A stretch of 27,356 bases of DNA from a virus. Shown piece by piece: positions 13,687 through 24,843 of this stretch. A model generated the notes under the pieces. That model was given only the letters and a program-made list of their open reading frames with translations, had not been told where the DNA came from and searched no databases. Made by a program: the position numbers and the translations under genes. The DNA lies in the IMG/VR virus record IMGVR_UViG_3300042509_000677, positions 1-27,356 of that record. One strand, given 5' to 3'. Within the stretch, counting starts at the first letter, position 1, and each line of letters opens with the position of its first letter.

Positions 13687-14501
13687 TAGCCTTGAGTTTC
13701 GATGTACTGCCCAATGAAGTTAGTGGCAGTTGTTGCACTAGGAAACCATACAAGCTGCAAAACACTACCATCGTAAATGCGCGGCATCCCTGCCGTCAGT
13801 ACGTCAATAGCGTTACCGATGTTGGCAGATGTAACTTCTACCTGAGCGAGAACACGGAACAGCACTAAGTGCATCGTACCACTGGTGCGAGTAGCGGACT
13901 GCGTGAAAGATGATGCTGAAGTAAGCGATCTAATACCTGTATCGCCGGCACCTAAAGTAAACACCTCAAAAGTGCCGACAGGAGGCGAAGCAACGGCAGC
14001 GAATGTTCCCGTGCCAGTGTTGCCATCTTGGTCGTTATAAACCAACGTAACAGTAGGCGTTCCCGTGCCTCCCGTTGCTGACCATTCAATAGCAGCCATC
14101 ACGTTAGCGCCATTAGCCGTCCCGTCGCCGGATCTGGCGGGAAGTGCTGCCGATGTGATGGCTTGACCCGCCGTAGAAGTGACCGAAAGTCCGCTGTTGT
14201 TCCACATACGGTCGATCAGCCACAAAGTGCCCGGTGTACTAGCGTTGATGCCTAAACGTGCAAGGTAAGCAAATGCGCCGCCTGTTGGATTTGTGCGAGG
14301 AAGCATTCCTGTCACGGGTGCAGTAACTGCCGCGCCGTTAACGCCAGCGGCGTTTGCTGTAGCAGCGCCGGGATTTCCTGCCGCATACCACGGGGTGTAT
14401 CCGCGCAATGCTCCGACAGCGGCGGTTCCAATACCTACCTTTGTGATAGGTACTGGAGCTTGCATACCAGCGATAGCGCCGTCTAGTGTCGTAATCGCCA
14501 T
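13686..14501 (-). CDS. Beta-rich structural protein (271 aa)
   Basis: The protein is rich in Gly, Ala, Thr and Val, starting MAITTLDGAIAGMQAPVPIT. It has no charged clusters, no cysteine in the visible part and a beta-strand pattern throughout (TVTLVYNDQDGNTGTGTF, FEVFTLGAGDTGIRSL, TMHLVLFRVLAQVEV). The N-terminal pattern with LRGYTPWYAAGNPGA is seen in other phage particle proteins. The start overlaps the stop of the 51-residue gene (TAATG). Its position after the portal region suggests a head decoration or cement protein; I cannot name a family. Confidence 0.7.
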   Translation of the reverse strand: MAITTLDGAIAGMQAPVPITKVGIGTAAVGALRGYTPWYAAGNPGAATANAAGVNGAAVTAPVTGMLPRTNPTGGAFAYLARLGINASTPGTLWLIDRMWNNSGLSVTSTAGQAITSAALPARSGDGTANGANVMAAIEWSATGGTGTPTVTLVYNDQDGNTGTGTFAAVASPPVGTFEVFTLGAGDTGIRSLTSASSFTQSATRTSGTMHLVLFRVLAQVEVTSANIGNAIDVLTAGMPRIYDGSVLQLVWFPSATTATNFIGQYIETQG

Positions 14502-15076: not shown

Positions 15077-17422
15077 TTATTCAATTCCAACGATCTTGCC
15101 TTTTTCGCGTATCAGCTTTTTAGGCCGATTGACCGCTTTGATGGCAGCTTGTGCGGCTTCACGCTGGTTTTTTGTCATGATCTCTACCGCATCTTTGAAC
15201 CCTGCAACGCCGCTATCAATTCCAGAAACAGCGTTCGTAATGTTCTGGCTGGCTTCCGAAAGGCTTTGCGCTGCCGTGATCTGGGCTTTTACAGTGTCAA
15301 CCTTTGACTCTATTTCCTCAAGCTGGCGCATCTTGATCGCTAGATCGAATCGCTTGCTTTCAATGTCCAGGCGCTCACGCTCTTGCTTGATCGGGTCAAC
15401 TTCCTCAACCTTAACCTCAGTGCGGGTGTTTTTAGTCGGGTTGTCAATCTCAGACAGGATCGAAAGCGTATCGGCTTTGGCTTTCTCAGCGTTTGCCATT
15501 GTAAGCTCAGTGTCAGCCAATGCTTTGCGCGCCAGTGCTTCAGACTTCTGCGCTTCAGCCATCAGATAGACCGTCTGCGGATCTTGCTGCTGCTGTTGAG
15601 CCATCATGGCTTCCATCATCTGCTGCTGTTCTTCATCAGTCGGCGGAACAACGCCCATCTGAACGAGCTTCTTGCGGAAGAAGTCCTTAATGTCAGAGAT
15701 GCCTTCACCGTCCATGTTCATGATCGCCATAGACTGAAGGATCATCTGTGTTTCAGGATCGCTTGTAACCTGCATCATTCCAGTCAGTGAACGGACAGTG
15801 GATTCGCGGCGGCTGGTGAACGACGGGCCAACATCGACAGCAACATCAAAGTTGGCTTGGCTTAGATCATTCTCGTAAACCAATTCGCCAGTTTCAGCGT
15901 CAATGGTCGGCTTCATCATCTCGATGGATTCAACCTGCTCCATCGCGCCGATTGACTTCATCTTACGTCCTTCTTCGACGTAAATGTCTTTAGCCATCGA
16001 CAGCCATATCTCACCGCAGCGGCGCATAGCCTTCGCCATGTTGGTCATGTAGATGAATGACTGCATGTCCAAACGGGTCTGGATCATCTCAACGGCTTTA
16101 CCGCTGATGTTGCTGACCATCTTGTCCGCTTGCTGACTATTACCAAGAATTTCCGCCATATCCTGCTCGGTCAACTGCAAGAGCGCAGCCATCGCCGGAG
16201 GAATGTCGGAAGACTTGGTATAAGCAACAGGGCCAGCGGCTTGCGTCTCGCCATTCGGGCCAGTGATTGGATTGACCAGCAGATAGGGATAATTACGGAT
16301 ATTATCCTCTGCCCACATCACTTGGTGTCCAGCGACCTGCTCAGGAACGAGGATCGGCTTTTCAACGGATGAAAGCGCACTGATCTCACCCAGCTTTGAA
16401 AGCTGCATGTTCTTCAGGCGCTGCGGATCTTTAGCTAGGCGAACATGGCCCATGCAACGCTCGACGTTATCGACGAACCAACGCTTGCCGTAATAGGGAA
16501 CAATCGGAATGTTCTTGCCAGCGATGTAGCCAGCATCTTCGAGGATGCCCCCACCGCTCATGATGTATTTGTGAACGCGCCGACGCTTCACCCGCTTCTG
16601 GCGAACCTCGATGGTTCCAACAGCCAGGAGAGTTTCTTCAAGCGTTTCGTCTGCGTCAAAGTCTGCCTGCGTGTAGCGTTCTTCCTCGCCAGTGATGGTC
16701 TGGAATATGCGGATCGTCTCGCGCACTTCTTCGACGCGGTAATATTCCGCCACGAACACAACGTCTGGCGTGTCCCAGTCAAATTCGTATTGGTGAATCT
16801 CTTTAGGCCATGTGGTCGGATCATCGTTCCATTCAGCGCGATAGGCTTCGCGGGTCATCGAATAGAGAACGAAGCAATATTTAGCGTCCGACTTGTCCTG
16901 GCGCTTTGCGTCTAGATCAAAGAATACGCTGCTATCAGCGTCATAGATCGGTTCAAAGCGGATGCGCTGCTTTTCATTCTCATCGTCTTCATCGTCTTCA
17001 TAGACGGTGCGCAGACGCCATGCACCGAAGCCACCGCCAACACCTTCCTCGAAAGCATTGTCGAAAGCTTCATCTGCAACGCTGTCCTGTTCGTCAGCGC
17101 GATACAATCCGTTGCAAGTCTCAGCCAGCTTATCGTTGCTGCTTCCGTCCTTGGACACAAAGTCAACACCGATGCGGTTGTTGCGGTATTCGTTGATGAT
17201 ACGAATGACGCTCAGGTGAACCTTGTTTACCTCAAAGCGTGGCTTGTTCTCGAACTGCTCACCGATGGGGCCTTCCCATTGTGCGCCAGCGAGTGAATAG
17301 AAACGGCGATCCTGAAGGCACTGCAAGCGTTCATCGCGCATGGATGACTGACAGCGATCAAACTCAGTCAATGCCGCCTGATGCACATTGCCGAGCCGTT
17401 GTTCTCTAGTCAGTCGAGCCAT
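15077..17422 (-). CDS. P22 gp1-like portal protein
   Basis: The 781-residue protein matches the P22-type portal family (725 aa in P22). The N-terminus LTREQRLGNVHQAALTEFDRCQSSMRDERLQCLQDRRFYSLAGAQWEG leads into FENKPRFEVNKVHLSVIRIINEYRNNRIGVDFVSKDG, then the wing (FEPIYDADSSVFFDLDAKRQDKSDAKYCF), the stem region, and GNSQQADKMVSNISGKAVEMIQTRLDMQSFIY. From about residue 590 the protein is Gln-rich and helical (EEQQQMMEAMMAQQQQQDP, then heptads), the C-terminal barrel seen in P22. Twelve copies form the ring at the packaging vertex. It directly follows TerL with no gap. Confidence 0.95.
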   Translation of the reverse strand: MARLTREQRLGNVHQAALTEFDRCQSSMRDERLQCLQDRRFYSLAGAQWEGPIGEQFENKPRFEVNKVHLSVIRIINEYRNNRIGVDFVSKDGSSNDKLAETCNGLYRADEQDSVADEAFDNAFEEGVGGGFGAWRLRTVYEDDEDDENEKQRIRFEPIYDADSSVFFDLDAKRQDKSDAKYCFVLYSMTREAYRAEWNDDPTTWPKEIHQYEFDWDTPDVVFVAEYYRVEEVRETIRIFQTITGEEERYTQADFDADETLEETLLAVGTIEVRQKRVKRRRVHKYIMSGGGILEDAGYIAGKNIPIVPYYGKRWFVDNVERCMGHVRLAKDPQRLKNMQLSKLGEISALSSVEKPILVPEQVAGHQVMWAEDNIRNYPYLLVNPITGPNGETQAAGPVAYTKSSDIPPAMAALLQLTEQDMAEILGNSQQADKMVSNISGKAVEMIQTRLDMQSFIYMTNMAKAMRRCGEIWLSMAKDIYVEEGRKMKSIGAMEQVESIEMMKPTIDAETGELVYENDLSQANFDVAVDVGPSFTSRRESTVRSLTGMMQVTSDPETQMILQSMAIMNMDGEGISDIKDFFRKKLVQMGVVPPTDEEQQQMMEAMMAQQQQQDPQTVYLMAEAQKSEALARKALADTELTMANAEKAKADTLSILSEIDNPTKNTRTEVKVEEVDPIKQERERLDIESKRFDLAIKMRQLEEIESKVDTVKAQITAAQSLSEASQNITNAVSGIDSGVAGFKDAVEIMTKNQREAAQAAIKAVNRPKKLIREKGKIVGIE

Positions 17423-19832: not shown

Positions 19833-20449
19833 ATAAACATATCGCCTTGACGTTGTGCATCTTCAATGCGCTTGCAGGCTATGTCGAAGTAATCAGTATC
19901 GCGCTCAATGTAGATAGCTTTGCGCCCCATAAGCACGGATGCGACTGCCGTAGAGCCTGATCCGCCAAATGGGTCGAGAATGGTTTGTGGATTATCAAGT
20001 TTGTTGATGCACCATTTCATTAAATCAATTGGCTTTTGTGTGGGGTGAACCTTGCCTCCATCCATAGACTGCGGACGCATTCTAAAAATTCGGGCAACAG
20101 CATCAATGTTTGTCCAAGCCATCTCTAAATCGGCAAAATCACGCCCATCGTTTTGCTTGTCCCAAACTAAAATGCATCGAGTTGCTGGAAGCGAGAAATA
20201 ATTTCCACCCCAAATAATTGCCTGTTTTGTCATGCGAACAATTTCTGCAAGGAAGTTGGCCTCTGGGGTTTCGTTGTCCCATGATTTGCCACCCATGCCG
20301 CGACTTACGGCGAGGCGATTGCTTTTGGTTATGTTTATCCCATAAGGCGGATCAGTCACTACAGCATCCACCTTGCCAAGCGTAGGCAGAATATCGCGGC
20401 AATCGCCCAGATAAAGCGTGGCGTTACCTATGATAACAGGATCAGCCAT
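19829..20449 (-). CDS. DNA methyltransferase, beta-class order (N6-A or N4-C)
   Basis: The 206-residue protein has TDPPYG (32-37, catalytic motif IV), a short central target region, VHPTQKPIDLM (134-144, motif X) and DPFGGSGSTAVASVL (159-173, motif I). This order IV-X-I is beta-class, as in CcrM of Alphaproteobacteria. With 206 residues it is near the smallest size for the class and lacks the long CcrM C-terminal domain. It methylates DNA using S-adenosylmethionine; the target cannot be read from sequence. The ATG at 20449 overlaps the stop of the small upstream gene (TGATG); the longer frame to 20506 would run inside that gene and has no ribosome site. It may protect phage DNA from restriction or alter host-controlled sites. 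Confidence 0.92.
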   Translation of the reverse strand: MADPVIIGNATLYLGDCRDILPTLGKVDAVVTDPPYGINITKSNRLAVSRGMGGKSWDNETPEANFLAEIVRMTKQAIIWGGNYFSLPATRCILVWDKQNDGRDFADLEMAWTNIDAVARIFRMRPQSMDGGKVHPTQKPIDLMKWCINKLDNPQTILDPFGGSGSTAVASVLMGRKAIYIERDTDYFDIACKRIEDAQRQGDMFI

Positions 20450-20619
20450 CACATCACCCCATAGTGTCGAAGGTAGAACTTCGCCCAGGCGTCTGTTGGG
20501 TAACACCCAGCTTTCCAGTTATCGCGTAAAGCAGCCTTTGACATTTTGCCTCGCTTCCATCTGTCTAGGTCTATCAGGAATTGTGTGCGGTTATTCGGCC
20601 TTCCGTAGCCGCTGGACAT
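20449..20619 (-). CDS. 56-residue basic protein
   Basis: The ORF reads MSSGYGRPNNRTQFLIDLDR, then WKRGKMSKAALRDNWKAGCY and PTDAWAKFYLRHYGVM. It lies between the replication gene and the methyltransferase. It overlaps the end of the upstream gene by 29 bases and ends in a TGATG junction with the methyltransferase. No domain is recognised. The junctions support it as a real gene, but the 29-base overlap leaves some doubt. Confidence 0.55.
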   Translation of the reverse strand: MSSGYGRPNNRTQFLIDLDRWKRGKMSKAALRDNWKAGCYPTDAWAKFYLRHYGVM

Positions 20620-21205
20620 ATCCCTCACCCTCTCGACGTAGCAAACCAGTCTCTACGCAAATGCGTTTCCAGCGTTCCGGCTTTGCGTCGATCACAGATT
20701 GATCAACTGGGCCATCGCGTAAATCAGCAACGAATTGATCGAATACCGATTGCGTGAAGTCTTCGCACTTGCGCAAGGCTCGATCTTTGCGCGTCGGTGG
20801 CGTCCGATATTCACCCAAGAAGCTTAGGCATTGGCGTGGCGTTGGGAACCAGTCCAATTCGCGGCAAGCCCTCTCGGTCATGTATGACAAAGCTTCCTTG
20901 CTATATCCGCCGAGCAATCGAACGTAGACCGCGAACCGCTTTTGCCCTGTTGCCTCATCAATGTTTTTGGCTGGCAGGGTCGCTGCGATAAATTCAAGCT
21001 GCCGAGCAATCTCTTGCGGACTTGCCAGATCCGCTTCAGCGGGGAGCGATAAGGCGAGTTGGCGAAGCTTGTCGCATTCCTCCATCGTCATCAAAGGCTG
21101 GGAAAGCATCCTCTCGATTTCCGACTTCGCGGAGGACAGAGAGGAAGCCATCGGCTTGTTTTCTGTTGCTTGCAGAATTGTTTTGACTGCTGCTGATATG
21201 TGCAT
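20591..21205 (-). CDS. Replication-module protein, possible helicase-loader type
   Basis: A 204-residue helical protein. The centre (KRFAVYVRLLGGYSKEALSYMTERACRELDWFPTPRQCLSFL) resembles a segment of phage proteins that follow the replication initiator, with LDWFPTPR as a recurring motif. I recognise no Walker motif, so it is not a AAA+ loader; a P-like loader is possible, by position only. The start at 21205 is supported by AAGGA 8 bases before the ATG, which puts the first 170 bases inside the initiator gene in another frame. Starts at 21151 or 21091 would remove the overlap but have no good ribosome site. Confidence 0.7.
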   Translation of the reverse strand: MHISAAVKTILQATENKPMASSLSSAKSEIERMLSQPLMTMEECDKLRQLALSLPAEADLASPQEIARQLEFIAATLPAKNIDEATGQKRFAVYVRLLGGYSKEALSYMTERACRELDWFPTPRQCLSFLGEYRTPPTRKDRALRKCEDFTQSVFDQFVADLRDGPVDQSVIDAKPERWKRICVETGLLRREGEGYVQRLRKAE

Positions 21206-21842
21206 TTTGCCTGTCCTTAATTTCGTAGAGGTCTGTCCATCCGTTCATCGTGCTGCGATCCAGCACCTCGGCAATATCCTGTCCAGCGTGACGCATTTTA
21301 TCCAGTTTGCTTAAAGCTCGTGTGTAACCTCTATCGGTTAAGGGTTTCTTAAGCTTTAACCTCATATCAATCCAACCATACCAAGCGTCCAATGGCATCC
21401 AGTCAGGGATATAAATTGAACCCATTTTGCTAGGGGGACTATAGGGGGTTATAACATCTGGTTTAATATCTGTGTTTATATCTGGTATAGGTTCGCCCTT
21501 CTGGTCATTTTCATTTGACCGTTTGGGCAAGTCGGATTTTCCAATAGGGCAAGTCGGTGCATACCATTTTGTTCGATCATATGCGGACTTGTTGAAAGAT
21601 CCGCTGACAAGCAAACCATCGTCCTCCAGCTTGGTCAAAGCCGTGCGAATTTGCTTTCCAGTCAGATAGGGGAACAAATCAGCAAATGCCGAAACGCTGT
21701 TATACGTCCACCACAAGCCATCGTGAAAATGCTTGTTGTTGGCTGCGTTCTTTTCAGCCCACCAAACAATGTTTTGGAAAATAACGGCGGCGTTCAAACC
21801 GACCTTGGCGGCAACCTCTGGATCGAAGCTGTGCCGACTCAT
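21036..21842 (-). CDS. Winged-helix replication initiator-type protein
   Basis: The 268-residue protein has an N-terminal winged helix (residues about 12-100): LNAAVIFQNIVWWAEKN, DGLWWTYNSVSAFADLFPYLTGKQIRTALTKLEDDGLLVSG, FNKSAYDRTKWYAP. This is the pattern of phage replication proteins that bind an origin within their own gene. A polar Pro/Asp linker follows, then a helical domain (DAWYGWIDMRLKLKKPLTDRGYTRALSKLDKM). The start at 21842 overlaps the stop of a 16-residue leader ORF (ATGA). It is the first replication gene of the leftward early operon. It could instead be a regulator; the size and its neighbours favour replication. Confidence 0.75.
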   Translation of the reverse strand: MSRHSFDPEVAAKVGLNAAVIFQNIVWWAEKNAANNKHFHDGLWWTYNSVSAFADLFPYLTGKQIRTALTKLEDDGLLVSGSFNKSAYDRTKWYAPTCPIGKSDLPKRSNENDQKGEPIPDINTDIKPDVITPYSPPSKMGSIYIPDWMPLDAWYGWIDMRLKLKKPLTDRGYTRALSKLDKMRHAGQDIAEVLDRSTMNGWTDLYEIKDRQNAHISSSQNNSASNRKQADGFLSVLREVGNREDAFPAFDDDGGMRQASPTRLIAPR

Positions 21843-21889
21843 AACACAATGCCTTGCGTTATGGTTTTGTGGCGTGTATTACTCAACAT
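21839..21889 (-). CDS. 16-residue leader peptide before the replication initiator
   Basis: The ORF MLSNTRHKTITQGIVL has a near-ideal ribosome site (AGGAGG with 8 bases to the ATG at 21889). Its stop TGA overlaps the initiator ATG (ATGA). The initiator by itself has a weaker site (AAGG, 9 bases). This arrangement fits translational coupling, with the leader opening the initiator start. The peptide may have no function of its own. Confidence 0.5.
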   Translation of the reverse strand: MLSNTRHKTITQGIVL

Positions 21890-21919
21890 ACTCAATGCCT
21901 CCTACTTAGGCGTTGTTTA

Positions 21920-21957
21920 GGGCGGGTTGAGCGATGCCTCTCTAACGCTCCCCGCCC
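21920..21957. terminator. GC-rich bulged hairpin
   Basis: GGGCGGG (21920-21926), a TT bulge, and GAGCG (21929-21933) pair with CGCTC (21946-21950) and CCCGCCC (21951-21957): 12 bp around a 12-base loop. It lies between the DUF1064 nuclease gene and the leader ORF on the minus strand. No T-run follows, so it may be an attenuator or a message end. Confidence 0.45.
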
Positions 21958-21981
21958 GCCCCACTAACCATAAAATGCGCT

Positions 21982-22314
21982 TTAAGTCAATCTCAGTTCC
22001 CAGTCAGGATACAGATGTCTGAACAAAGCAGCACGCAACGGGAAGTCTCGAACGACGAAGCCCTTCACGTCTTCAGCGATAAGCTTCCCACGCTCCATAT
22101 AGGTAAAGTCGGGTCGATAGCTTGCCACCCGTCCGTTGCCCATTTTGAGAGGCTTGCCGTTGACCATAAACTCGAACTTCGGCTCAATGGTCAAACCCTC
22201 GATCTCCCTGCCTCTCTGTAATAGGTGCAGTTGATCGCAACGCTTGGCTTCACGCTTTGACGCATGAAGATGCCCATTCGTGCAGGCGGTTTTCTTGGCG
22301 AAATATTTAGTCAC
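21982..22314 (-). CDS. DUF1064-type nuclease (PD-(D/E)XK-like)
   Basis: The 110-residue protein starts at a GTG (22314), giving VTKYFAKKTACTNGHLHASKREAKR, which fits the DUF1064 family pattern (TKYxAKK, dG, FdSkxEAxrY, L). Residues about 70-95 (ASYRPDFTYMERGKLIAEDVKGF) hold the active-site pattern D-(x)n-D-x-K. Members are phage nucleases of the PD-(D/E)XK type, perhaps for Holliday junctions. A longer frame to 22356 would start inside the DnaA-like gene; the GTG overlaps that gene's end by 8 bases, and the family similarity begins there. Confidence 0.82.
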   Translation of the reverse strand: MTKYFAKKTACTNGHLHASKREAKRCDQLHLLQRGREIEGLTIEPKFEFMVNGKPLKMGNGRVASYRPDFTYMERGKLIAEDVKGFVVRDFPLRAALFRHLYPDWELRLT

Positions 22315-22648
22315 GCAAGGCCCTCTCCACTCGTTCGACCGCTGCGGCAAACTCATCGTCTCGCTCGATTAGGTTCTCGACAACGCGCACGCCATGAAAG
22401 GCTGTGCTGTGATCTGTGCGGCCCAGCATGTTAGCCATCTGCAGATAGGACATATGTCCACAGTTGCGGCTCATCACATACCAGGCGACCTGCCTAGCCC
22501 TTACTCGCTTCTTGGATCGGCTAGGGCTAATCAATGATTGCTTGTCGATGTTGAATTCATTCATCACCGCTGTAACCACTGCCGAGCCACTGTTGCGTCT
22601 GCGGCGCTCAATATGCGGCGGCGAATACCATTTGGGAAACATGTTCAT
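22307..22648 (-). CDS. Free-standing DnaA domain IV-like DNA-binding protein
   Basis: The 113-residue protein matches only the C-terminal DNA-binding domain of DnaA: SRSKKRVRARQVAWYVMSRNCG (43-64), MSYLQMANMLG (66-76), and the signature GRTDHSTAFHGVRVVENLI (76-94), where GRDHST is the DnaA-box recognition motif. No AAA+ domain (Walker A or B) is present and the first 25 residues are basic and unstructured. It is therefore predicted to bind DnaA boxes without ATPase activity. In a phage early operon next to a replication initiator, it may take over or block host DnaA sites or act as an origin or promoter factor. It overlaps the neighbouring gene by 4 bases. Confidence 0.85.
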   Translation of the reverse strand: MNMFPKWYSPPHIERRRRNSGSAVVTAVMNEFNIDKQSLISPSRSKKRVRARQVAWYVMSRNCGHMSYLQMANMLGRTDHSTAFHGVRVVENLIERDDEFAAAVERVERALRD

Positions 22649-22935
22649 GCTTCACCACGGGCGATTGCCGCCATGCGCTTTACAGTGGCATTGGCCCCCG
22701 GAGTTTCTTGCGCCGCAATGCGCTCTAGACGCTCGTTCTTGGCTGCCAGCGCATCTGCAAGGCGTGACTGGCTATCTGCCATGTCTTTGAAGGCTTTTTC
22801 TACCACCTCGATTTGCGCACTCCATCGCGCCAATACGCAGTCAATATTAGGCTCACCTTTGCGCTTGCGCAGCCTATCGACAGCGGCCCAGCCTGCCAAT
22901 ACGCAGGCTGCTGCAAAAAATAGTTCTCCAATCAT
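22645..22935 (-). CDS. Membrane-anchored coiled-coil protein
   Basis: The 96-residue protein has an N-terminal transmembrane helix (residues 3-19, ELFFAAACVLAGWAAVD) followed by basic RLRKRK and a coiled coil (LARWSAQIEVVEKAFKDMADSQSRLADALAAKNERLERIA). The basic residues after the helix would keep the coiled coil in the cytoplasm, whereas an inner spanin (Rz) has its coiled coil in the periplasm, so a spanin role is uncertain. The ribosome site is strong (AGGAGG, 8 bases). The start overlaps the stop of the next gene upstream (ATGA). Confidence 0.65.
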   Translation of the reverse strand: MIGELFFAAACVLAGWAAVDRLRKRKGEPNIDCVLARWSAQIEVVEKAFKDMADSQSRLADALAAKNERLERIAAQETPGANATVKRMAAIARGEA

Positions 22936-23267
22936 TTTGCCAACCTCCTATAATATTCAATTTCGTGCGGCTTCAGCTTGCTGTGCTTCAAGTGGTAAGA
23001 TGCCAGCGCGGCAAGCAACGGATCGTCTGTCCTACGGCGAACTGTGCCGCGAAAGCTTCGATCACGCTTAAAGTCCCAACCAGATGGGTTGCCCTGCCCT
23101 GGCAGATACTTCTTTGGCAGTGATGCACGCATCTTAGCCATGTCAACCCTTGACAAAGTAACGCCGAAGCGGTGGCGAACATGAGCGAGGATCGTACTGT
23201 CATCGCTTATGTACGTTGCGAGATAACGGGCCAGTGCGACTGGCGTCGATGGTGATTCGTAAATCAT
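22932..23267 (-). CDS. Small protein with DNA-binding-like N-terminus
   Basis: The 111-residue protein begins MIYESPSTPVALARYLATYI, then ILAHVRHRFGVTLSRVDMAKMRAS resembles a helix-turn-helix (residues about 25-50). The rest is basic (KRDRSFRGTVRRRTDD) and ends in a Leu/Tyr helix (HEIEYYRRLAK). I do not recognise the family. The ATG overlaps the stop of the preceding small gene and its own stop overlaps the next ATG, so the operon is translationally linked. A regulator or DNA-binding role is possible. Confidence 0.6.
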   Translation of the reverse strand: MIYESPSTPVALARYLATYISDDSTILAHVRHRFGVTLSRVDMAKMRASLPKKYLPGQGNPSGWDFKRDRSFRGTVRRRTDDPLLAALASYHLKHSKLKPHEIEYYRRLAK

Positions 23268-23416
23268 GCCTGAAGCCTTTCCAAAAGATCCTGACGGCCC
23301 ATTTCTTTGGCGATCTGCATTGCCTTTTTGCGTGCAGCAACTCGGCTGGGTAGAAAGCGTCCGTCATTATCACGGGCCTGCTCAGGCTTGAGCCAGCGGG
23401 ATAAAATCTTAATCAT
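23264..23416 (-). CDS. 50-residue basic protein
   Basis: The ORF reads MIKILSRWLKPEQARDNDGR, then FLPSRVAARKKAMQIAKEMG and RQDLLERLQA. It is helical with net positive charge. It has ATGA overlaps on both sides and a ribosome site (AAGGAG, with 5 bases to the ATG) inside the previous gene's end. No family is recognised. The exact junctions support it as a gene despite its length. Confidence 0.6.
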   Translation of the reverse strand: MIKILSRWLKPEQARDNDGRFLPSRVAARKKAMQIAKEMGRQDLLERLQA

Positions 23417-23607
23417 GGTTTCTCCTTATGAATTATTTTCCATTGTGATTTGATCTGGTCTGGGCGGATAAATTCAAAGCCCATCTTCTGAAGCAATGCG
23501 CCTGTCACATGGCGCGGCGGATAAAATGCTACTGCATCGAACGAAGCCGACACAGTAGCTAGGTTCCCACTGGGAAATGCGTCTAAACCAGTGGGGGAGG
23601 AGGTCAT
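23413..23607 (-). CDS. 64-residue protein of unknown function
   Basis: Begins MTSSPTGLDAFPSGNLATVS; the C-terminal half (YPPRHVTGALLQKMGFEFIRPDQIKSQWKII) has a mixed alpha/beta pattern. No motif is recognised. It is the second gene of the leftward operon and its start overlaps the end of the HTH gene by 4 bases. The end overlaps the next ATG by 4 bases. Confidence 0.6.
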   Translation of the reverse strand: MTSSPTGLDAFPSGNLATVSASFDAVAFYPPRHVTGALLQKMGFEFIRPDQIKSQWKIIHKEKP

Positions 23608-23792
23608 CTACTCATCTCCGCCAAAGCCTTTTCCAGCTTGCCAATTGTCGGAAGCGTCGGGGCAATGCCCTGCTTTGTGTAGCGGTGTGCAATTGATGGC
23701 GAGACATTCGCAGCACGAAACAAAGCGTGCAGTTCAATGCGGCGATCTAAAGCGGTTTTAGCCACTTCATCCATGAGAGTTTTTCTGTCCAT
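23604..23792 (-). CDS. Small HTH protein, repressor/Cro-like
   Basis: The 62-residue protein has a helix-turn-helix pattern, LHALFRAANVSPSIAHRYTKQGIAPTLPTIGKLEKAL, similar to the Cro/C1 (XRE) fold, where NVSPSIAHRYTKQG would be the turn and recognition helix. It is the first gene of the leftward early operon. Its ATG has no ribosome site, but a promoter -10 (TATAGG) ends 6 bases before the ATG, so the message would start at or next to the ATG, as for lambda cI from PRM. No C-terminal dimerisation or cleavage domain is present; it may be a Cro-like regulator rather than a full repressor. Confidence 0.72.
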   Translation of the reverse strand: MDRKTLMDEVAKTALDRRIELHALFRAANVSPSIAHRYTKQGIAPTLPTIGKLEKALAEMSR

Positions 23793-23798
23793 ATCGGC

Positions 23799-23827
23799 CC
23801 TATAAATTAGACGCTTTTTAACATCAA
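23799..23827 (-). promoter_or_regulatory. Predicted leftward promoter of the HTH gene
   Basis: On the minus strand, -35 TTGATG (23827-23822), a 17-base spacer and -10 TATAGG (23804-23799). Each box matches sigma70 in 4 of 6 bases. The -10 lies 6 bases before the ATG, so a leaderless message is predicted. Confidence 0.55.
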
Positions 23828-23828
23828 G

Positions 23829-23840
23829 CGAAAAATTTCG
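23829..23840. promoter_or_regulatory. Candidate operator dyad
   Basis: CGAAA (23829-23833) and TTTCG (23836-23840) form a dyad with a 2-base centre, just upstream of the leftward -35 and 11 bases before the rightward -35. It is a natural place for the HTH protein to act on both promoters. No second copy is obvious in the gap. Confidence 0.35.
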
Positions 23841-23850
23841 AATTTATTTG

Positions 23851-23878
23851 TTGACCTAAATTGCAATGTGCGTAAAGT
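23851..23878 (+). promoter_or_regulatory. Predicted rightward promoter of the recombination operon
   Basis: -35 TTGACC (23851-23856), 16-base spacer, -10 TAAAGT (23873-23878). The 5' leader would be about 20 bases long and include GGAGG (23894-23898) before the first ATG. Confidence 0.5.
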
Positions 23879-23903
23879 GGGGGCAACAACAACGGAGGCA
23901 AAA

Positions 23904-24053
23904 ATGCAAAAAGTCATTTACCCGCACTTTGATAACCCAGAGACCAGCGACGAAGAACGCGCATTGATCGAGCGTCTTAAGGCGCAACCAATGCCAGCCG
24001 ATCTTGCCGAGCGCATCGAGCGTATCAATAAAGCTTTCGGGGCGCAGTCATGA
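23904..24053 (+). CDS. 49-residue protein, first gene of the rightward operon
   Basis: Starts MQKVIYPHFDNPETSDEERA and continues as a charged helix (LIERLKAQPMPADLAERIERI). The ATG at 23904 has GGAGG with a 5-base spacer; a longer frame from 23868 would start inside the promoter. It overlaps the next gene by 4 bases (ATGA). No family is recognised. Confidence 0.65.
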   Translation: MQKVIYPHFDNPETSDEERALIERLKAQPMPADLAERIERINKAFGAQS

Positions 24054-24280
24054 ACGGCGGCCTTTCACAATTTACCCGCGTGCTGGAAAGCGTTGACCTG
24101 ATTACGGTCTGGCCTGCCGAGCCGATCAGCGTAGACTTCTACCTGAACGCCAGCAGCGAAGCATGGGATGCAGAGATGCGCAGCCGCTACGGCGATGATT
24201 GGGAATCGCTCGATCAGGCCGATAGCTTTACGCAGCAAGAGTGGAATGAATGGAAAGCAGAACAGGAGGCTTTAATATGA
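24050..24280 (+). CDS. 76-residue acidic protein
   Basis: Begins MNGGLSQFTRVLESVDLITV, with an acidic, aromatic C-terminal part (SEAWDAEMRSRYGDDWESLDQ). It is of the size and charge of small phage anti-host proteins, such as DNA mimics, but nothing in the sequence proves that. It overlaps both neighbours by 4 bases. Confidence 0.6.
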   Translation: MNGGLSQFTRVLESVDLITVWPAEPISVDFYLNASSEAWDAEMRSRYGDDWESLDQADSFTQQEWNEWKAEQEALI

Positions 24281-24843
24281 AAGAGATTATAACCGCTTTG
24301 GCTAAGGCACTTCCCGAAGTTGACAGTGCTTCGAAGGATAAAAGCAACCCAGCGTTTCGGTCAAAATATGCCGACCTTGGCAACGTGATCGAAGCGATCC
24401 GCCCTATTGTAAAGCACGGTCTCTGGTATCGCCAAGAAACGATTGAGCATGAACAGGGAGCCTGCGTTGAAACCTTTTATCTGCATATAAGCGGAGAGGA
24501 AAAGAGCGGTGGCAAATGCTTTATCCGTGCGTCAAAGCAAGACGCTCACGGCTTCGGTAGCGCCCTTACCTATTGCCGCCGTTATGGCTTGATGGCTGCT
24601 TTCGGGATCGCGCCCGAAGATGATGATGGAAATGCTGCCGTCAAACAGGTTAAGCATTCCGAACCGATCAACCAGACGCAATGCGATATGCTGCGCACGC
24701 TGATCGAAGCCAGCGGATCAAACATCGTGGCATTCTGCAAATATTATGGGATCGAATCGCTGCCGGAATTGCCTGCAAACAAATTCGCCCATGCAGAAAA
24801 AAGCCTGCAAACCAAACTAGCGGCCAAGGGAGAGAAAGAATGA
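24277..24843 (+). CDS. erf: Erf-type single-strand annealing recombinase
   Basis: The 188-residue protein starts MKEIITALAKALPEVDSASK at an ATG with AGGAGG 8 bases before. It has the Erf family pattern FRSKYADLGNVIEAIRPIVKHGLWYRQ (27-53) and the core SKQDAHGFGSALTYCRRYGLMAAFGIAPEDDDG (86-118). Erf proteins form rings and anneal complementary single strands; in P22 they circularise the genome. The C-terminal part after residue 120 is variable. The gene stands directly before the exonuclease gene. Overlap with both neighbours is 4 bases (ATGA). Confidence 0.92.
   Translation: MKEIITALAKALPEVDSASKDKSNPAFRSKYADLGNVIEAIRPIVKHGLWYRQETIEHEQGACVETFYLHISGEEKSGGKCFIRASKQDAHGFGSALTYCRRYGLMAAFGIAPEDDDGNAAVKQVKHSEPINQTQCDMLRTLIEASGSNIVAFCKYYGIESLPELPANKFAHAEKSLQTKLAAKGEKE

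Follow-up and report, generated by a model that had tools for sequence, protein, structure and literature searches.

A predicted lone DnaA domain IV protein in a phage replication module: conservation, neighbourhood and possible targets

In the window of 27,356 nucleotides, which is the whole stretch of DNA analysed here, the genes from position 23792 down to 20449 all lie on the minus strand, with short overlaps of a few bases between most of them. The part of this gene series around the protein under study, P0001, contains the following features:

21036..21842, minus strand: O-like replication initiator (phrog_11233, E 6.4e-35; phrog_678, E 8.8e-29)
21839..21889, minus strand: 16-aa leader ORF MLSNTRHKTITQGIVL, overlapping the initiator start codon (side feature)
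21982..22356, minus strand: DUF1064 / Holliday-junction-resolvase-like gene (PF06356, E 1.4e-13; phrog_190, E 2.3e-24)
22307..22648, minus strand: lone DnaA domain IV protein P0001, 113 aa (PF08299; model against 3pvp/1j1v; contact residues)
22385..22582, minus strand: Bac_DnaA_C domain proper (six-frame family search, E 3.7e-17)
22645..22935, minus strand: 96-aa gene upstream of P0001, overlapping the P0001 start by 4 bases (from the ORF list)
22932..23267, minus strand: 111-aa gene without assigned function, 90–100% identical in the family loci compared

The first-pass annotation had placed P0001 in an early leftward operon, of which the leftward series of overlapping genes is confirmed, while early expression is presumed. 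With its listed start, the DUF1064 gene shares 50 bases with the end of P0001; were the in-frame GTG at 22314 the true start, the overlap would shrink to 8. The 96-aa gene gave no Pfam family above the cut-off and no PHROG better than E 0.036.

Between the DUF1064 gene and the initiator, we additionally observed a conserved leader ORF of 14–16 aa with a GGAGG site and two covarying inverted repeats (window 21839–21975, minus strand), where the stop of the leader overlaps the initiator start. The hairpin test was based on 12 of 23 sequences, near-duplicates as well as L021, L022 and L037, which carry another gene there, being excluded. In these 12 sequences, the drawn pairs form in 90.5% of cells compared to 35–53% when slid, and 14 two-sided changes fall into drawn pairs compared to 3.4 in shuffles, with further pair types being no more frequent than in shuffles. 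The second hairpin loses several pairs in 2 of the 12 sequences, and the minimum-energy fold of the window's strand (z -3.1) contains the first hairpin and not the second. No Rfam family matched the leader region at the gathering score. Judged from sequence, the leader ORF and its inverted repeats may serve translational coupling of the replication initiator; they are a side feature, separate from the finding on P0001.

The P0001 reading frame (22307–22648, minus strand) begins with ATG, and residues 24–88 match Pfam Bac_DnaA_C (PF08299) with E 2.3e-15 and 56.8 bits against a cut-off of 31.5. The GRTDHST signature, which had been noticed by eye, is located at residues 76–82. PF08299 is the sole Pfam family in P0001 at E up to 0.1, with neither AAA+ nor DnaA_N among the matches, and phmmer searches with P0001 at E up to 1 returned five distinct PDB sequences, all of them DnaA. 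An AlphaFold2 model built from 11 aligned sequences (mean pLDDT 83.8, six helices) superposes on DNA-bound DnaA domain IV with TMt 0.92 for 3pvp and 0.95 for 1j1v at an rmsd of about 1, so that family match and model bear out the earlier description of a lone domain IV with this signature and without ATPase. Residues 1–20 constitute a low-confidence tail in the model, while the first eight residues, MNMFPKWY, are invariant in P0001 and 10 aligned relatives of the 24 found. Taking sequence and predicted fold together, P0001 consists of DnaA domain IV preceded by a short N-terminal tail, and it lacks an AAA+ domain. It equals bacterial DnaA in the fold of domain IV and in most box contacts; bacterial DnaA in addition has domains I to III, which P0001 lacks, including the AAA+ domain by which a full DnaA would be recognised. 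In DnaA, domains I to III are responsible for ATP binding, oligomerisation, origin opening and helicase recruitment.

The roles of the DNA-contacting residues of domain IV are in part general knowledge. In part they are described in PMC9638019. In an alignment of P0001 to E. coli DnaA, for which the E. coli letters were obtained from PDB-sequence matches, R44, R52, Q53, D79, H80, T82 and R88 of P0001 correspond to identical residues in DnaA (R399, R407, Q408, D433, H434, T436 and R442), S81 replaces T435, and P423, R432 and K443 are changed to L69, T78 and V89. Among the 11 other AAA+-less sequences aligned (10 from phages, 1 from a plasmid), R407, D433, H434 and T436 are kept in all 11 and R399 in 10. 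Since P423, R432 and K443 are changed, the specificity of P0001 may differ from the DnaA box, and sites in phage DNA may consequently be overlooked.

Comparison with four relatives (two at 96–98% identity, two at 79%) yielded dN/dS values of 0.02–0.10, by which P0001 is under purifying selection. Relative to the 79% pair, the core of residues 44–90 (0.05–0.08) is more constrained than the N-terminus (0.14–0.16); relative to the 96–98% pair it is not (0.04–0.07 compared to 0.01–0.06). These values, consistent over all four comparisons, speak strongly against P0001 being a vestigial, functionless remnant of a captured dnaA. Although the rest of DnaA is indeed missing, as such a remnant would have it, the domain also occurs repeatedly in unrelated phages, and we regard this explanation as highly improbable. 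By alignment, model and substitution pattern, P0001 is instead a real lone domain IV, under selection and with most DNA contacts retained.

Two scans of IMG/VR delivered 24 contigs with P0001 relatives at 79–100% identity, whereas two scans of 84,980 cellular genomes, both needing an exact short peptide match that distant relatives could escape, delivered none. A motif scan with GRTDH[ST]T found four more distant proteins, all with PF08299 (L044, L045, L058 and L059), of which the L044 protein is 39% identical to P0001 and has a similar MFPxWYxPP start. By tblastn with three of the motif-scan finds and two later ones, the domain was reached in further phages. It is found in Rhizobium, Bradyrhizobium, Sulfitobacter, Octadecabacter, Aurantimonas, Pelagibacter, Microcystis and Synechococcus phages, in phage C72C1 and in the uncultured phage ctOK67, and PF08299 without AAA+ could be confirmed in 17 phage records besides the window. 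By structure, 50 viral models match at E 0.001 or below. Top of this list is A0A6J7X7G2, a protein of 112 aa and 78% identity that is named 'Chromosomal replication initiator, DnaA C-terminal', and the models listed also include Cellulophaga phi19:1 and Tenacibaculum Gundel_1. We take the hosts of the lone domain-IV phages found to be Alphaproteobacteria, cyanobacteria and Bacteroidetes. A0A6J7X7G2, phiGT1 gp62 and the protein of the Pelagibacter phage Skadi-1 resemble P0001 in having domain IV without AAA+ and a similar fold; A0A6J7X7G2 is nearly equal in length and shows no essential difference, whereas phiGT1 gp62 and Skadi-1 differ in length and N-terminus. Judged by these matches, this kind of phage protein is already widely annotated, often as DnaA-like by depositors, and P0001 is one more of it. 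In the open-access literature searched, which lacks most subscription papers, no functional test of a phage copy was found.

Ten INPHARED matches named 'Bacteriophage sp.' were rejected as phage homologues, since all four that were read of these ten hold full-length DnaA of 427–458 aa; these records from human faeces (L028–L031) are probably contaminating bacterial contigs in the phage collection. Further matches resembling bacterial dnaA by label or by missing annotation were likewise excluded. A separate observation concerns plasmid pBSY19_1 of Bosea sp. RAC05 (L038 11587–12372), where a protein of 261 aa combines DnaA_N with DnaA domain IV and has no AAA+.

Gene neighbourhoods were compared in 18 phage records (the window, L044, L045, L058, L059, L063–L067, L069–L075 and L077, with L065 and L075 being similar phages). 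Thirteen of them have a replication initiator or primase no more than five genes away from the domain, and 8 have a Holliday-junction-resolvase-like gene within four genes (the window, L045, L059, L063, L065, L066, L067 and L075). Neighbours were labelled by HMM scans and deposited annotation, the genes of four IMG/VR contigs being picked ORFs. The phage matches RHph_I1_23, Yong-M4-211 and other Pelagibacter phages are left out of this count, as is MW202711 (L076), whose annotated gene has 120 bases and no Pfam confirmation. In Aurantimonas phage AmM-1 (L071 3902–5092), domain IV even resides inside a 396-aa protein adjoining an annotated DNA primase gene, with the remaining ~300 residues giving no family match. 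These findings would suit a phage-replication accessory, sitting at or near the phage origin and marking it, helping the initiator or excluding host DnaA. On the other hand, L058, L067, L069, L072 and L077, whose neighbours were partly scanned, showed neither an initiator nor a primase at five genes or less from the domain; in the last of these, C72C1, the annotated initiator is 11 genes away from the domain. As a side observation, in Synechococcus phage Ssp-JY42 the gene two positions behind the lone domain IV (L074 4670–5563) matches the CBASS inhibitor Acb3 (PF25187, E 2.2e-79).

Within the window's own family, the partners of P0001 are exchanged while the gene itself stays. In all 17 family loci compared (16 contigs of the 24 found), the DUF1064 gene follows the domain-IV gene. 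The window's O-like initiator, by comparison, is recognised by tblastn in only 4 of the 16 contigs (L003, L006, L032 and L035, the last equal to L018). Of six other contigs typed by HMM, L033 and L021 have initiators beginning like DUF1376-kind primosomal proteins, those of L034 and L036 are DnaD-like, and those of L017 and L020 are O-like and have phrog_678 in common with the window's protein, of which they may by this profile match be distant relatives. Close relatives thus differ in three clearly different initiator types by HMM and four by tblastn; independently of this, the L021 and L033 initiators look like chimeras in which N- and C-terminal halves of different kinds are joined. At 23604–23867, exchange has also affected the small HTH gene and its adjoining operator-like region, which come in several versions among close relatives, reminiscent of immunity types. 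Since initiator and repressor/operator are exchanged and the domain-IV gene is constant, P0001 is not linked to any single initiator, origin or repressor. For a replication accessory this is an unfavourable result: in lambda-like phages the N-terminal domains of initiators set origin specificity, and it is these domains that are swapped in the relatives, with P0001 remaining in place.

The absence of boxes noted by eye holds in the strict sense, as the window contains no exact TTWTNCACA. By chance, only about 1 (third-order model) to about 2 (first-order) would be expected, and this absence alone therefore says little. Near-boxes number 26, compared to 47 expected from a first-order Markov model and 30 from a third-order one; a depletion of DnaA boxes as a sign of avoidance was rejected on the grounds of the third-order expectation and because 23% of permuted motifs are equally low. 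The search for box clusters that the first-pass annotation had proposed was carried out for near-boxes within 300 bases, with 100 simulations per record, on five complete records with the domain (HTVC010P, Sulfitobacter phage phiGT1, Octadecabacter virus DB2, Mvi-Yong1342-1 and C72C1), on the window, and on most of ctOK67 (40.3 of 43.0 kb) and ppBeUSDA76-2 (28.3 of 41.8 kb). It came out negative for the window and the seven other domain-bearing records in the DNA examined (0 of 8, p 0.11 or higher each), although a degenerate or altered motif would escape this test. The lowest p, 0.11, belongs to phiGT1, where the densest 300 bases start ~2 kb before the domain-IV gene, and Mvi-Yong1342-1 has 3 exact boxes compared to 0.7 expected, without clustering. 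Near-boxes are mildly in excess in ctOK67 (24 compared to 16.1) and L036 (11 compared to 6.1), counts higher than those of 97% and 96% of permuted motifs, respectively, which is in favour of a replication accessory.

That the test can see a DnaA-box array follows from ct3Oc712, a related phage without PF08299 (terminase 61.6% identical), in which a clear cluster with two exact boxes close together was detected (L040 14552–14850; 0 of 100 simulations as high). This cluster, closely behind a gene with the annotation 'regulatory protein repA', is by its box content a candidate for an origin using host DnaA. The other two domain-less records, PBR31 (28.7 of 40.0 kb) and RDJL1 (50.0 of 62.7 kb), show no cluster. 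Iterons near the initiator were not detected either, since the window region 20400–24300 contains only two-copy repeats and no iteron array. The first-pass annotation had offered three options for P0001, namely host oriC, a phage origin or a role as transcription factor. The first and the last survive, while the simple form of the phage-origin option is weakened by the missing clusters in the eight records, the cluster in ct3Oc712, and the swapping of the adjoining initiator next to a constant domain-IV gene. We consider an accessory role in phage replication unlikely.

To our knowledge, GafY is the only lone domain IV studied so far, and it was reportedly first named HdaB in the original paper for its effects on replication. 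This replication reading was reinterpreted, and the protein, as GafY, acts in gene transfer agent (GTA) production of C. crescentus (PMC9632790). GafY, a homologue of DnaA domain IV, activates the GTA jointly with IHF, RpoD and the anti-terminator GafZ; it acts far upstream of promoters together with IHF and contacts RpoD domains 3–4 (PMC11150451, PMC9632790). In Rhodobacter, both parts are united in a single protein, GafA (PMC6363796, PMC9638019), whose homologues carry DUF6456 and in which changes of key residues in the DnaA-like N-terminus impair RcGTA activation (PMC9638019). GafY and the N-terminal domain of GafA are P0001-like, being DnaA domain IV homologues without ATPase in a prophage-derived element. 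P0001 could accordingly be a transcription factor of the GafY kind, binding a site other than the DnaA box upstream of phage promoters, contacting the sigma factor and activating phage genes. Such a regulator would also be expected to persist while replication modules are swapped.

The two systems also differ. GafY is encoded with GafZ, a DUF6456 protein, and P0001, unlike GafY, sits in a replication module. DUF6456 (PF20057) gave 0 matches at E up to 1 in the window, which may be a genome fragment, with Caulobacter vibrioides scoring positive among the control genomes. Of 25 further domain-bearing records or contigs (6 of them fragments of the window's family, and one, MW202711, without Pfam confirmation), only Bradyrhizobium phage ppBeUSDA76-2 has DUF6456. 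In this phage (L064), the lone domain IV lies at 13821–14324 and the DUF6456 gene at 16156–16689, ~1.8 kb downstream of the domain-IV gene and two small genes before the terminase. Its DUF6456 score is right at the cut-off (25.9–26.5 bits compared to 26.3), and by this match a GafY/GafZ-like pair probably exists in this one phage, in line with a transcription factor. RDJL1 gp38 was considered as a GafA with DnaA-like N-terminus and rejected, since it has DUF6456 and no PF08299. P0001 itself shares with GafY the lone domain IV and not the pairing with GafZ, and is therefore outside the GafY/GafZ definition. At the position of R399, in addition, GafA carries Glu and P0001 has retained Arg, although the authors caution on that end of their model (PMC9638019).

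The stretch before terS is common to the window, L006, L017, L032 and L036, overlaps a small ORF and is missing in L015, L020, L025, L034 and L037, and was consequently rejected as late promoter. Against a GafY-like factor, none of the stretches before terS is common to all 10 family sequences aligned, and exchange extends to the region in front of the early genes. Weighing precedent against these observations, we hold a GafY-like transcription factor to be possible, close behind the model favoured below.

We tentatively favour a different model, in which P0001 is an early DNA-binding protein that competes passively with DnaA by occupying sites resembling the DnaA box, most of them in the DNA of the host. 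P0001 would be made early in infection and bind double-stranded DNA in a sequence-specific manner at DnaA-box-like sites. Since it has neither an AAA+ domain nor domain I, it would form no filament, open no DNA and recruit no helicase, and would thus act passively, as competitor or roadblock. Since no box cluster was detected in the phage DNA examined, the sites it mainly binds most likely belong to the host, where they would comprise the origin and DnaA-controlled promoters. Occupation of these sites would slow or deregulate host replication and thereby favour that of the phage. The observed basis of this model consists of the predicted fold, the kept contacts, the missing ATPase, purifying selection, the position of the gene and the absence of box clusters; that P0001 is expressed early, binds DNA at all, chooses host sites and has the effect described is inferred. 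The constancy of the gene over swapped initiators and repressor/operator regions is as expected if the target is outside the exchanged modules, and the spread over phages of Alphaproteobacteria, cyanobacteria and Bacteroidetes fits a near-universal target.

Several points stand against host competition. By alignment and motif counts, these are the changed residues P423, R432 and K443, the mild near-box excess in ctOK67 and L036, and the p of 0.11 in phiGT1. Further, a cluster was seen in only one of the three control phages, and the reinterpretation of HdaB as GafY sets a precedent for abandoning a replication reading. The choice of a competitor over a transcription factor is therefore made on the kept contacts, the missing clusters and the constancy across swapped modules, with the GafY precedent pulling in the opposite direction.

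On a broader scale, phages might repeatedly have stripped DnaA to its box-reading domain as a decoy on host DnaA boxes, a general anti-replication device, of which GafY would be a later domesticated form turned transcription factor and ppBeUSDA76-2 the link; we regard this scenario as speculative and unlikely. DnaA domain IV proteins are a common class among phages, as the structure matches in viral models show. If host DnaA boxes are the target, this class would represent a simple and widespread phage interference with the start of host replication. If its members are transcription factors, phage domain-IV proteins would help to explain the origin of the GTA activators GafY and GafA.
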